Shown: piece after piece, positions 29,688 to 37,948 of the stretch
How positions within the stretch are numbered: the first letter of the stretch is position 1
Layout: each line of letters begins with the position of its first letter
The notes under the pieces: generated by a model
What the model was told of the DNA's origin: nothing
The model's database searches: none
Seen by the model: the letters and a program-made list of their open reading frames with translations, nothing else
DNA from: Luteibaculum oceani
Lineage (GTDB): Bacteria; Bacteroidota; Bacteroidia; Flavobacteriales_D; Luteibaculaceae
Assembly: GCF_007995015.1 (NCBI RefSeq)
Contig: NZ_VORB01000004.1
Coordinates: 62,001 to 126,000 of the forward strand
Direction: 5' to 3'
DNA length: 64,000 nt
Made by a program: the position numbers and the translations under genes

Positions 29688-29782
29688 TATTAAAAATAGA
29701 AAAATATTTTAATTAATTACAAATTATATTCAAATAATTTGAATTTGATACAAAAATAAAAGATGGGGCGTGGTGTAGTTGA

Positions 29783-29937
29783 CGGGATCTCTCAGTTGCC
29801 AATCAAGTTTTTGTATCTGGTGAAAAGGCTTTTAAGAAGGCTCCGTCGCGATGACAGGGTTGCTCAAACGCGGAGTAAGAAGCCAAGCCACAAAGCTGTC
29901 ATTTCGAACGTAATGAAATGGAGGGAGAAATCTCGTT
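29783..29937. repeat. A element pair 1 (inverted, about 155 bp)
   Basis: A minus-strand A copy (29783-29857, ending CGCGATGACAG) faces a plus-strand copy (29896-29937, CTGTCATTTCGAACG to GAGAAATCTCG), so the whole is a long imperfect palindrome with a 38-base centre. Confidence 0.75.
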
Positions 29938-29984
29938 AGAGCAGAACATTGCCCAATAGACATTTTTGGTAATCATATGTTTTT

Positions 29985-30310
29985 CACACTTTACTTTTTT
30001 CATTACCAAAAAAGTAAACAAAAAGGTTAGCTGCCTTTCATCAGCTTGGTTCTCTTTGGAAGCATTAAGCAATCCTTTTTCATTTTTTATTCATCAGGTA
30101 ATTGATTTTAATGGAATTCATGAATCTTCGATTTCCATCGATGAAAAAACGAAACAAAAAAATCTAGGCCTAGACATTTCATTCGTCATAGCTGGTCGAT
30201 AAACATAAGTGCGGCCAGGCGAGCTACCGCTTCCTGGTCTTACTAATGTTTATCCTGCATCTATTTCCTCTGAAATCTATGGCCTTTTGGACGCACGAAT
30301 GATAAACGCA
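29985..30310. repeat. F' element copy 1
   Basis: It opens with the palindrome TTTACTTTTTT-cattacc-AAAAAAGTAAA (29990-30018). It also contains the hairpin of GATAAACAT and ATGTTTATC around an inner CCAGG/CCTGG stem (30198-30254), and it ends in the ACGCACGAATGAT boundary shared by all F and F' copies. Confidence 0.7.
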
Positions 30311-30330: not shown

Positions 30331-30411
30331 TAACGGGATTCTACCTAATGCGGCTACAGGAATCAGACGGTTATCGAGTGCCACGACGAAGGAGTGGTGT
30401 ATCGAGATAAC
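30331..30411. repeat. Short A variant plus B hairpin 1
   Basis: A diverged short A piece (AACGGGATTCTACCTAATG) leads into the B hairpin at 30369-30411: outer GTTATC/GATAAC, then the inner stem CCAC/GTGG around GACGAAGGA. The inner pair differs from B8 (CCTC/GAGG), which keeps pairing. Confidence 0.65.
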
Positions 30412-30441
30412 AAAGGCGGAGGACTTAGCCTAGTTACAAAG

Positions 30442-30482
30442 CTGTCATTTCGAACGGAACGGAGTGAAGAGAGAAATCTCGT
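30442..30482 (+). repeat. A element, plus orientation, before the GIY-YIG gene
   Basis: It runs from CTGTCATTTCGAACGG to GAGAAATCTCGTTAG, 35 bases before the GIY-YIG start. Its inverted counterpart begins 52 bases after the stop of that gene. Confidence 0.75.
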
Positions 30483-30517
30483 TAGAGAGTATCTTTTTAT
30501 TTAAGTAACTTAAGTAC

Positions 30518-30805
30518 ATGGCCAACTACCACGTGTACATTCTGACTAATAAAAGAAAGACAGTACTTTATATTGGTGTTTGTAATAATCTCAAAAGGAG
30601 ACTTTACGAACACCAACAAGGCAAACTCCTAAATGCGTTCAGCAAAAGGTACGGTTGTCAGTTTCTAATCTATTACGAAAGGTTCGAGGATATCAACCAA
30701 GCAATTGGCAGGGAAAAGGAATTAAAAAAATGGCGCAGAGATAAGAAAGAAGCTTTGATTGAAAAGACTAATCCGAATTGGGATTTTTTGAATGATGAGG
30801 TTTAA
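30518..30805 (+). CDS. Small GIY-YIG nuclease inside inverted A repeats
   Basis: This 95-residue single-domain GIY-YIG endonuclease is of the small type seen across Bacteroidota. The motifs are YHVYILT (the GIY position, residues 4-10), LYIGVCNNLKRRLYEH (YIG and the catalytic arginine), and the helix GREKELKKWRRDKK, whose glutamate matches the metal-binding glutamate. It is therefore expected to cut DNA, one nick per active site. The gene stands exactly between a plus-oriented A repeat (30442-30482) and a minus-oriented one (30858-30933), as if those were terminal inverted repeats. I infer that it handles these repeats; no function is established for this subfamily. Confidence 0.88.
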   Translation: MANYHVYILTNKRKTVLYIGVCNNLKRRLYEHQQGKLLNAFSKRYGCQFLIYYERFEDINQAIGREKELKKWRRDKKEALIEKTNPNWDFLNDEV

Positions 30806-30857
30806 CAGCTATTTTTACTAGGAATTGGGTTTACCACAATTGATCGCTGCGTTATTA

Positions 30858-31022
30858 ACGGGATCTCTCAGTCGCCAATCAACTTGTTTGTTGCTGGAGC
30901 AAGGCTTTTTTGCAGGCTCCTTCGAGATGACAGTTTTGGTCCAGGGCAAAGGCCTTTTCAAGACTTCAGAACTGTCATTTCGAACGACCACGCCACAAGC
31001 GTGGGGAAGGAGAAATCCCGTT
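30858..31022. repeat. A element pair 2
   Basis: A minus copy (30858-30933) and a plus copy (30972-31022) face each other over 38 bases. The plus copy carries an inserted CCACGC-CACAA-GCGTGG hairpin in its middle, the same arms as in RNase P RNA and the B elements. The minus half is the right flank of the GIY-YIG gene. Confidence 0.75.
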
Positions 31023-31040
31023 AAGGCATAACTTATTCCT

Positions 31041-31251
31041 TTCATATTCTTTTTCATTTTTTTCATTGATACTCCGGCAAACTCAGTACAAGTGAAAAAA
31101 CGAAACAAAAAAATCTAGGCCTAGACATTTCATTCGTCATAGCGGTTCGGTAAACATAAGTGCGGCCAGGCGAGCTATCGCTTCCTGGTCTTACTAATGT
31201 TTATCCTGCATCTATTTCCTCTGAAATCTATGGCCTGATAGACGCACGGAC
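31041..31251. repeat. F' element copy 2
   Basis: It matches copy 1 from the TCTAGGCCTAGACATTTCATT block to ACGCACGGA. The hairpin TAAACATAAG...TTACTAATGTTTA lies at 31150-31205. The left end lacks the TTTACTTTTTT palindrome of copy 1. Confidence 0.65.
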
Positions 31252-32435: not shown

Positions 32436-32508
32436 TGTTGGAGGGGGTGGTCGCGTTGTGGCTATTAGGATCCATACAAGTTCGGGATGACTGCTACCGG
32501 TTTAACTC

Positions 32509-33136
32509 GGTTATCGAGTGGCCACGCCCCAAGAGTGGGTGTATCGAGATAACATGGGCGAAGGAATTAGCTCGTAGCTGGTAGCTGTTTGCGATTAGGT
32601 AGAGGATGAAGGCGATGAATTGATGAAGTTATATGCTCTGATCACCTCCTCTCGATATACTTCTTCCCTATCGGGGCGAAGCACTCGAGGACCAGGTATC
32701 GCTGTGTAACTTACGGGATTTCTCAGTCCTCCGGACGATGTTGTTTCCGAAGTTTGGAAGTTAGGAGACTCTTTCGAAATGACAGCTGCGGGTTTAGCAC
32801 GGTTATCGAGTGCCCACGCCCCAATCGTGGGTGTATCGAGATAACAAGGGCGAAGGAATTAGCTCGTAGCTGGTAGCTGTTTGCGATTAGGTAGAGGATG
32901 AAGGCGATGAATTGATGAAGTTGTACGCTCTGATCACCTCCTCTCGATACACTTCTTCCCTATCGGGGCGAAGCACTCGAGGACCAGGTATCGCTGTGTA
33001 ACTTACGGGATTTCTCAGTCCTCCGGACGATGTTGTTTCCGAAGTTTGGAAGTTAGGAGACTCTTTCGAAATAACAGCTGCGGGTTTTAGACGGTTATCG
33101 AGTGGCCACGCCCAAGCGTGGGTGTATCGAGATAAC
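32509..33136. repeat. 292-bp tandem array of B, C and A modules
   Basis: B hairpins begin at 32509, 32801 and 33093, a period of 292 bases each time. Each full unit holds B, then a GTAGCTG/GATGAA-rich linker, then C (32645-32692 and 32937-32984), then a minus-oriented A copy (from 32713 and 33005). Units 1 and 2 differ at only a few positions by eye. In the inner B stem CCACGCCCCAAGAGTGG changes to CCACGCCCCAATCGTGG, and later to CCACGCCCAAGCGTGG. Confidence 0.85.
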
Positions 33137-33211
33137 ATTGGCGGAGGGATTAGCTCTTTGTACTTAGCTCGTAGAAGGGAGGGGAAATTTCGTTGATAAG
33201 AGCATTGCTCA

Positions 33212-35585: not shown

Positions 35586-35637
35586 CGAGTTTCGGTAAAC
35601 CTAGAGGTTATCGAAGGTGGAAGTCGCGGTGGTATTA

Positions 35638-35840
35638 ACGGGATTTCTCAGTCGTCCGAACAATATAATTTCTTGAGCCTGAATGTTGAGAGACTCTTTC
35701 GAAATGACAGCTGTGGGTTTTAGACGGTTATCGAGTGGCCACGCCCAAGCGTGGGTGTATCGAGATAACATGTGCGGAGGATTTAGCCATGCCACAAAGT
35801 TGTCATTTCGAACGGAACGAAGTGAAGAGAGAAATCTCGA
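35638..35840. repeat. A element pair 4 with B hairpin 5 between
   Basis: The minus A copy is 35638-35710, B5 is 35726-35769 (GTTATC/GATAAC, CCACGC/GCGTGG) and the plus A copy is 35800-35840. The order C4, A, B5, A, F2 is complete here and defines the composite. Confidence 0.75.
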
Positions 35841-35890
35841 TTGGGAGACGCGTTGCCCAAATCCATTTCTGTAATCTTTGGTTTTTCTCA

Positions 35891-36640: not shown

Positions 36641-36943
36641 TTAAATAATAACTCGGTTAATACAGAGCAATTGGGGATTGATCTTTTTGATCAACTTTTC
36701 CTTCTTTTCTCTGTCCCAATTACGGATCTCTTTAACGCGTTCTTCGGCTTCTTTGCGAGTGTTGAATCTTTCGTAAAACATTAGTTGATTGGTTTTTTGG
36801 CCTCTTTCGTAGGCGGAATTATAAATACTTCTCTTGAATTTATATACCAATAAGCGCATGTTGTCCGAGGAGCTCGTATGGTATACTGTTCTACTGTAAT
36901 TGGATACTATGTAAACATAGTAATGTTGCGGAATGAGCCTCAT
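36641..36943 (-). CDS. GIY-YIG family protein lacking the catalytic YIG and Arg motif
   Basis: This 100-residue relative of the intact GIY-YIG protein at 30518 has a changed active site. HYYVYIV (the first motif) and the helix RVKEIRNWDREKKEKLI with its glutamate are kept. Where the intact copy reads LYIGVCNNLKRRL, this one reads VYHTSSSDNMRLLVY, so the second motif and the catalytic arginine are absent. The frame is still open over 100 codons, which argues for retained selection, perhaps for DNA binding. The ATG lies in the small ATGAG-C-CTCAT hairpin that precedes a TGGTAGG motif (36947-36953), and E element 5 lies beyond the stop. Confidence 0.72.
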   Translation of the reverse strand: MRLIPQHYYVYIVSNYSRTVYHTSSSDNMRLLVYKFKRSIYNSAYERGQKTNQLMFYERFNTRKEAEERVKEIRNWDREKKEKLIKKINPQLLCINRVII

Positions 36944-37277: not shown

Positions 37278-37296
37278 ACGTTTTACGATGTATTTA

Positions 37297-37451
37297 ACGG
37301 GATCTCTCAGTCGCCAGTCAATTTTTTTGTTGCTGGAGCAAGGCATTTTTGGAGGCTCCTTCGAGATGACAGCTTTGGTTATGGGCGGAGGACTCATCCG
37401 GGATAAAAAGTTGTCATTTCGACTGCACCGAAGCGGAAGGAGAAATCCCGT
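37297..37451. repeat. A element pair 5
   Basis: Minus copy 37297-37371, plus copy 37411-37451, 39 bases apart. There is no B hairpin between them, in contrast to pair 4. Confidence 0.7.
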
Positions 37452-37479
37452 CAAGGCATAACTTATTCCTTTCATATTC

Positions 37480-37705
37480 TTTTTCATTTTTTATTCATCA
37501 GGTAATTGATTTTAATGGAATTCATGAATCTTCGATTTCCATCGATGAAAAAACGAAACAAAAAAATCTAGGCCTAGACATTTCTTTAGTCATAGCTGTT
37601 CGGTAAACATAAGTGCGGCCAGGCGAGCTATCGCTTCCTGGTCTTACTAATGTTTATTCTACATCTATTTCCTTAGAAATCTATGGCCAGATGGACGCAC
37701 GGACA
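37480..37705. repeat. F' element copy 3
   Basis: Contains the TAAACATAAG...TTACTAATGTTTA hairpin near 37604-37660. It lacks the TTTACTTTTTT palindrome at its left end. Confidence 0.65.
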
Positions 37706-37736: not shown

Positions 37737-37895
37737 ATGGGATCCCACCTAATCCGAGATGACAGCTGCGGGTTTAGCACGGTTATCGAGTGGCCACGCC
37801 CCAAGCGTGGGTGTATCGAGATAACATGGGCGGAGGATGCTGCCATGATACAAAGTTGTCATTTCGACCGTAATGAAGAGGAGAGAGAAATCCAG
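37737..37895. repeat. Short A variant, B hairpin 7 and plus A copy
   Basis: B7 is 37781-37825, with inner CCACGC-CCCAA-GCGTGG. A plus A copy follows at 37855-37895 (TTGTCATTTCGACCG ... GAGAGAAATCC). Confidence 0.65.
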
Positions 37896-37948
37896 TTAGA
37901 GCAAAACATTGCTCATTAAACATTGTAGGTAATATTCTATTTTACTCG

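Follow-up and report, generated by a model that had tools for sequence, protein, structure and literature searches.

A 95-residue GIY-YIG nuclease of Luteibaculum oceani and the GTC-headed REP hairpins that frame its gene probably belong to a RAYT/REP-like system with an unrelated nuclease, in which the GIY-YIG enzyme is selective for its own hairpins; we give this reading, in which cutting is inferred, a probability of roughly 0.68. Among relatives of the gene, we observed (i) an association with the repeats, (ii) a match between repeat class and enzyme lineage, (iii) cassette edges that fall at repeat heads, and (iv) occupied sites with empty counterparts. The analysis started from one stretch of 64,000 nucleotides (hereafter the window), which holds the candidate cassette and, farther along, a second nuclease frame.

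30442..30933, no strand assigned: candidate mobile cassette, REP - GIY-YIG gene - REP, heads outward (from the sequence and the like architecture in relatives)
30442..30484, plus strand: upstream A repeat, GTC-ATTTC-GA...GA-GAAAT-C, head left
30518..30805, plus strand: GIY-YIG nuclease gene, 95 aa, intact
30855..30933, minus strand: downstream A repeat, long form, lower stem ATCTC/GAGAT, head right
36641..36943, minus strand: degenerate nuclease paralogue, second catalytic motif lost, between A clusters

The sequence-only reading had placed an intact 95-residue GIY-YIG gene between a plus and a minus A repeat, an arrangement confirmed by the sequence, the open reading frame, and Pfam. The plus repeat carries CTGTCATTTCGAA at 30442 and GAGAAATCTCGTTA at 30471, the minus repeat carries TAACGGGATCTCTC at 30856 and TTCGAGATGACAG ending at 30933, and the GTC heads of both point outward from the gene. 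P0001, the protein encoded by the window frame 30518-30805 (+), matches the Pfam GIY-YIG family (E=1.9e-14) and meets the criteria of that family, with both tyrosines, the arginine, and the glutamate all present; Y7, Y18, G20, R28, and E66 are invariant in the 62 sequences of an alignment of relatives. Its AlphaFold2 model is confident (mean pLDDT 93.7), and the solved structures closest to the model are those of the UPF0213 protein BH0048, the Slx1 nuclease, and the UvrC N-terminal domain. An HUH fold with its catalytic tyrosine is absent from P0001, where GIY-YIG is the sole domain found and the model matches GIY-YIG structures. The further claim that the other A copies nearby lack a gene is right for most of them, the exception being the GIY-YIG frame at 36641-36943 (minus) in the next A cluster, which is 33% identical to P0001, has its YIG motif replaced, and has no A repeat directly adjoining. 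Judged from its sequence, this frame is a decayed or catalytically dead paralogue of the nuclease.

The gene-less A copies span 29.8-38.4 kb of the window, and include the following:

29779..29857, minus strand: non-autonomous A repeat, long form
29896..29938, plus strand: non-autonomous A repeat
30972..31023, plus strand: non-autonomous A repeat, enlarged hairpin
32711..32785, minus strand: non-autonomous A repeat, long form, within a 292-bp tandem duplication
33003..33077, minus strand: non-autonomous A repeat, second copy of the 292-bp duplication
35636..35710, minus strand: non-autonomous A repeat, long form
35800..35842, plus strand: non-autonomous A repeat
37295..37372, minus strand: non-autonomous A repeat, long form
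37411..37453, plus strand: non-autonomous A repeat
37856..37898, plus strand: non-autonomous A repeat

The window copies form alternating arrays, so that the repeat framing the gene downstream doubles as one arm of the adjacent inverted pair. Minus copies are the longer ones (~75-79 nt, which corrects an earlier account), and in the one next to the gene the lower stem has changed in a compensated way, ATCTC/GAGAT replacing ATTTC/GAAAT. A strict detector of GTC-tagged hairpins found 8 in the window versus 0 or 1 in Markov-shuffled windows, and the window hairpins are therefore beyond chance. Folded singly as DNA, the window A copies showed no stability above that of shuffles, except the one at 30972-31023 (z -2.5); the energy model may undervalue tandem G.A pairs. 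Units with the outer ends TTAACGGGAT...ATCCCGTTAA, in which the heads would face inward, were considered for the window and dropped, since relatives and paralogues have outward heads as their edges.

Exact matches to GTCATYTCGA number 21 in the whole genome (2.92 Mb), 14 of them concentrated around the gene in a single 39-kb stretch of contig C4. Almost every A repeat of the genome is found in ~39 kb around the gene (G000 contig C4:91.9-131.3 kb), as if the repeats had spread locally or the region had been acquired. A third A cluster, at 130.5-131.3 kb of C4 and outside the window, is without a gene relic. Other repeats occur in the same region: a B-type repeat (CGGTTATCGAGTG...GTATCGAGATAAC, whose ends can pair) often sits between a minus and a plus A copy to give a composite A-B-A unit (window positions 30368-30429, 32501-32571, 33085-33154, 35725-35770, and others), and a 156-nt repeat with the palindrome TCTAGGCCTAGA and a CGGCCAGGCGAGCTATCGCTTCCTGGTC hairpin lies between A units at 30142-30297, 31093-31248, and about 37535-37690. 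The first two of these 156-nt copies are 96% identical, and the repeat is also present at locus L253. The 292-bp tandem duplication (32481-33064, 95% identical) contains an A copy and other repeats.

For comparison, 80 relative loci were gathered by protein sequence alone from Flavobacteriia, Cytophagia, Sphingobacteriia, Prolixibacteraceae, Ignavibacteria, and one gammaproteobacterium. By the strict detector, a GTC-tagged hairpin lies within 250 bp of the gene in 77/80 relatives, and on both sides in 62/80, as against 35/592 (both sides, 2/592) for control positions elsewhere in the same loci. Two loci, L088 and L100, fail the A motif yet carry other hairpins built on the same plan, TGTCATTCCGGACTTGATCCGGAATCC in L100 being one. 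A motif-free score for inverted repeats between the flanks exceeded the 99th percentile of controls at just 37/80 loci; this score is weak because the stems vary and the arrays alternate, and the tag-plus-stem detector was therefore used in its place. In Allomuricauda abyssi (L055), >60 alternating repeat arms surround the gene within 6.4 kb at near-regular spacing.

Di Nocera et al. (2013) distinguished GTAG-tagged REPs, which are linked to RAYT transposases, from CGTC-tagged REPs, in which a CGTC tag (often TGTC or CCTC) is unpaired at one end of an 8-9 bp stem that begins with AT, with a loop of 4-5 and a CCA tail; these are intergenic, lie mostly in inverted pairs, and include Neisseria dRS3 and Rickettsia RPE-4/6 (PMC3733652). 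A tblastn search of plasmids with a P0001 relative had Sinorhizobium, Rhizobium, Azospirillum, Sphingobium, Novosphingobium, Neisseria, Aeromonas, Planktothrix, and Spirosoma among its matches, several of the matched genera being named as CGTC-repeat carriers in that study (PMC3733652). CGTC-type repeats were near the gene in 12/12 plasmid-collection loci that we read and close on both sides in 10/12; dRS3 is the flanking repeat in Neisseria, L130 has a repeat only downstream within 220 bp, and the upstream copy of L136 is doubtful. Among Pseudomonadota and further loci, the strict detector scored 42/68 matches with an HMM score >=90 as flanked, and most of the others have, judged by eye, CGTC repeats with another stem and loop length. 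Other small GIY-YIG genes (score 40-55), whose proteins form a branch separate from the repeat-flanked family, were flanked in 3/26 cases and never on both sides, which is near the rate at background positions (3.7%). The association thus reaches Pseudomonadota, Ignavibacteria, and a cyanobacterium, and the flanking repeats there are CGTC-tagged REPs. In the cyanobacterial locus, on Planktothrix agardhii plasmid p1 (L134), the GIY-YIG/REP cassette has an MmeI-type restriction gene on one side and the DISARM gene drmA on the other.

The flanking hairpins fall into a GA class, GTC-ATNNN-GA...GA-N'N'N'AT, with tandem G.A in the stem, and a P class with an uninterrupted stem. Hairpin class changes 3 times across a protein tree with 133 classified members, versus a mean of 37 and a minimum of 31 for shuffled labels. 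This match does not reflect phylum alone, because single genomes, namely those of Algibacter (G266), Flagellimonas (G063), G061, G127, and G256, hold paralogues with differing classes. Pairing at the first inner position of the GA hairpin is not a condition of the detector, and it is possible in 86% (n=57) and 89% (n=47) of distinct sequences, versus 32% and 34% when shuffled, through G-C, C-G, and A-T combinations; relatedness of the sequences inflates these percentages.

Signs of movement come from paralogous cassettes and from empty sites. The alphaproteobacterial genome G235 has three cassettes (L158, L190, and L245) at unrelated sites, and G119 has four. Identity between these paralogues starts at CTTCGTC, the upstream REP head, and ends at GACGAAG, the downstream REP head, the exceptions being alignments in which one copy is cut short or diverged and ~ten extra bases just upstream of the cassettes that the G235 copies also have in common. 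Such edges were seen in only these two genomes of one genus, and most paralogue pairs outside them are too diverged for their edges to be read; the Bacteroidota GA class yielded no recent paralogues. By eye, no target-site duplication is visible at the G235/G119 cassette edges, which leaves the classical IS/MITE criterion unmet. The L158 site is empty in nine congeners (spacer 16-110 nt), and the occupied block there, at ~795 nt, exceeds the 514-nt cassette. In Azospirillum lipoferum 4B (L132), whose enzyme is a P-class relative, sufB and sufC are separated by the gene with a REP pair on either side of it, and in six other Azospirillum this junction is a short spacer without REPs; the L132 cassette splits the suf operon, and an effect on sufC expression is possible. 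The trpC-trpF junction of Prolixibacteraceae occurs in three states, being closed or nearly so in most, holding a REP pair alone in L213, L214, and (diverged) L211, and holding REP-gene-REP in L209 and L212. The comparison of empty and occupied sites proposed by the sequence-only reading is thereby met at these three places, but not for the window cassette itself, for which there is no sister-strain comparison. A Rhizobium CIAT894 plasmid was rejected as an empty-site case, since its relatives could be aligned on just one flank and there is an IS upstream.

The trpC-trpF series would also fit gain of the gene into, or its loss from, an existing REP pair, and the bare pair at the same site makes a homing-like process the main rival: the nuclease would cut gene-less REP sites and host recombination would copy the gene in, with the REPs serving as homology arms and spreading by other means. 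GIY-YIG is indeed a homing-endonuclease family, and the REP pair of close relatives sits exactly where others have REP-gene-REP. Against this, the empty sufB-sufC junctions of six Azospirillum and the L158 site of nine congeners lack such a pair (stepwise gain is not excluded), paralogous cassettes have both REPs in common and differ outside them, and the tracking of protein clade by repeat class would be left unexplained. We consider homing of this kind unlikely, though it remains a live alternative to the RAYT/REP-like reading.

The distribution of gene and repeat across genomes bears on another alternative. In a set of 60 genomes of relatives, the two-arm A pattern was present in 11, including 7/8 of those with the best gene matches, and a reversed control gave 0. 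Among 296 Bacteroidota genomes, with gene presence called at E<=1e-20, 58 have both gene and pattern, 31 repeats only, 67 the gene only, and 140 neither (odds ratio 3.9, p=2e-7, in a test that ignores phylogeny); the gene-only genomes probably include other repeat classes, and the 31/296 with the pattern alone indicate that repeats persist without the gene or that other enzymes act on them. A-pattern copies amount to 1049 in the 125 genomes with the gene versus 156 in the 171 without. Neither of the outcomes that would have refuted the sequence-only reading was therefore found: subgroup genes elsewhere are not without repeats, which accompany them at matching distances and mostly on both sides, and A copies are not equally dense in genomes lacking the gene. 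The gene is patchy (125/296 Bacteroidota and 47/200 Pseudomonadota genomes), its copies per genome are usually few but reach nine, and some copies contain stops. A domesticated housekeeping enzyme, which would process REP cruciforms or control expression through flanking REPs as regulatory sites, could account for the usually low copy number and for the structure-selective folds (Slx1, UvrC) among the closest solved structures; the patchiness, the genomes with up to nine copies, the stops, and the insertion polymorphism between congeners render it improbable. That small genes and REPs merely meet in common permissive intergenic sites is scarcely tenable, for although REPs in general are intergenic and clustered (PMC3733652) and the window gene lies within a repeat-rich island, the repeats are missing at control positions of the loci concerned and beside other small GIY-YIG genes, hairpin class matches protein clade even between paralogues of one genome, and cassette edges coincide with REP heads.

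GIY-YIG enzymes are known as DNA hydrolases and are not known to carry out strand transfer of their own. In the RAYT/REP-like reading that we favour, the nuclease would be sequence- and structure-selective, with the GTC-headed REP hairpin at its own ends as substrate, and would be to CGTC-type REPs what the RAYT/TnpA-REP transposase is to GTAG REPs. Most likely, single-stranded DNA (as present at a replication fork) would fold into the hairpin, or a cruciform would arise; the nuclease would then cut the GTC head or its immediate vicinity, and host repair or replication would place the segment, whether released or copied, at another site. Inferred in this scheme are the cutting, the form of the substrate, the position of the cut, and the route of integration. 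REP-gene-REP with outward heads would constitute the autonomous unit, and single REPs and gene-less REP pairs its non-autonomous copies. An autonomous nuclease with terminal repeats amid non-autonomous copies had been proposed from the outset; recurring cassettes edged at repeat heads support the architecture, but autonomous movement catalysed by the nuclease is only an inference. Whether these cassettes make up a separate category of mobile element in several phyla, with a free-standing ~95-residue GIY-YIG nuclease as the only element enzyme, which would mobilise the hairpin-ended cassettes along with the gene-less copies and so have generated the CGTC REP superfamily, is, in our estimation, an evenly balanced question.

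No dedicated transposase was found for CGTC-tagged REPs in the 2013 study, whose authors listed this as an open question (PMC3733652). The GIY-YIG enzyme is the best candidate for this missing partner, albeit without activity data, and can be named for testing as a putative partner of Neisseria dRS3 and of the repeats found in many Alphaproteobacteria. In the open full-text literature we found no link between GIY-YIG and REPs; preprints and subscription journals were outside this scope, and an earlier description is not excluded. The suggestion that the system is undescribed thus holds within that literature for the enzyme partner, which is the new part, but not for the repeat, whose kind is already published. 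If the RAYT/REP-like reading is true, REP systems arose from each of two unrelated nuclease superfamilies, and a function would be at hand for many small genes whose annotation reads 'GIY-YIG nuclease family protein' or 'excinuclease ABC subunit C'.

Among known systems, UPF0213 and other small single-domain GIY-YIG proteins resemble the nuclease in domain, size, and predicted fold, but those sampled form the separate branch and are not repeat-flanked. GIY-YIG homing endonucleases, whether of group I introns or free-standing, have in common with it the catalytic domain and selfish spread; in contrast to them, no intron was seen, the element is bounded by REP hairpins, and 95 aa are too few to accommodate a separate DNA-binding domain. 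RAYTs, which are tyrosine transposases of the HUH type, act on single-stranded REPs with GTAG tags by cutting and joining them (PMC8266576). As in RAYT/TnpA-REP REPtrons, a small gene is framed by inverted REPs, many gene-less REPs and REP pairs lie elsewhere, enzyme and repeat match by lineage, and gene copies are few; unlike in REPtrons, the enzyme is a GIY-YIG nuclease without an HUH fold, and the flanking tag is GTC, mostly after C or T, rather than GTAG. The likeness to RAYT/REP with a different enzyme and a different repeat, as first drawn, is accordingly upheld in its inverted framing and in the unmet HUH and GTAG criteria, but the repeat proves to be a relative of the published CGTC-tagged REPs. 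It meets their criteria in its tag (TGTC in the window, CGTC in relatives), in its stem starting with AT, and in being intergenic and mostly in inverted pairs. It departs from them in that the Bacteroidota form has a stem of 5 bp plus tandem G.A and, in the window, a CTC or CCC tail, versus the uninterrupted stem and CCA tail, both of which many proteobacterial loci do show. Canonical CGTC-tagged REPs themselves flank relatives of the gene in Azospirillum, Rhizobium, Neisseria, and others.
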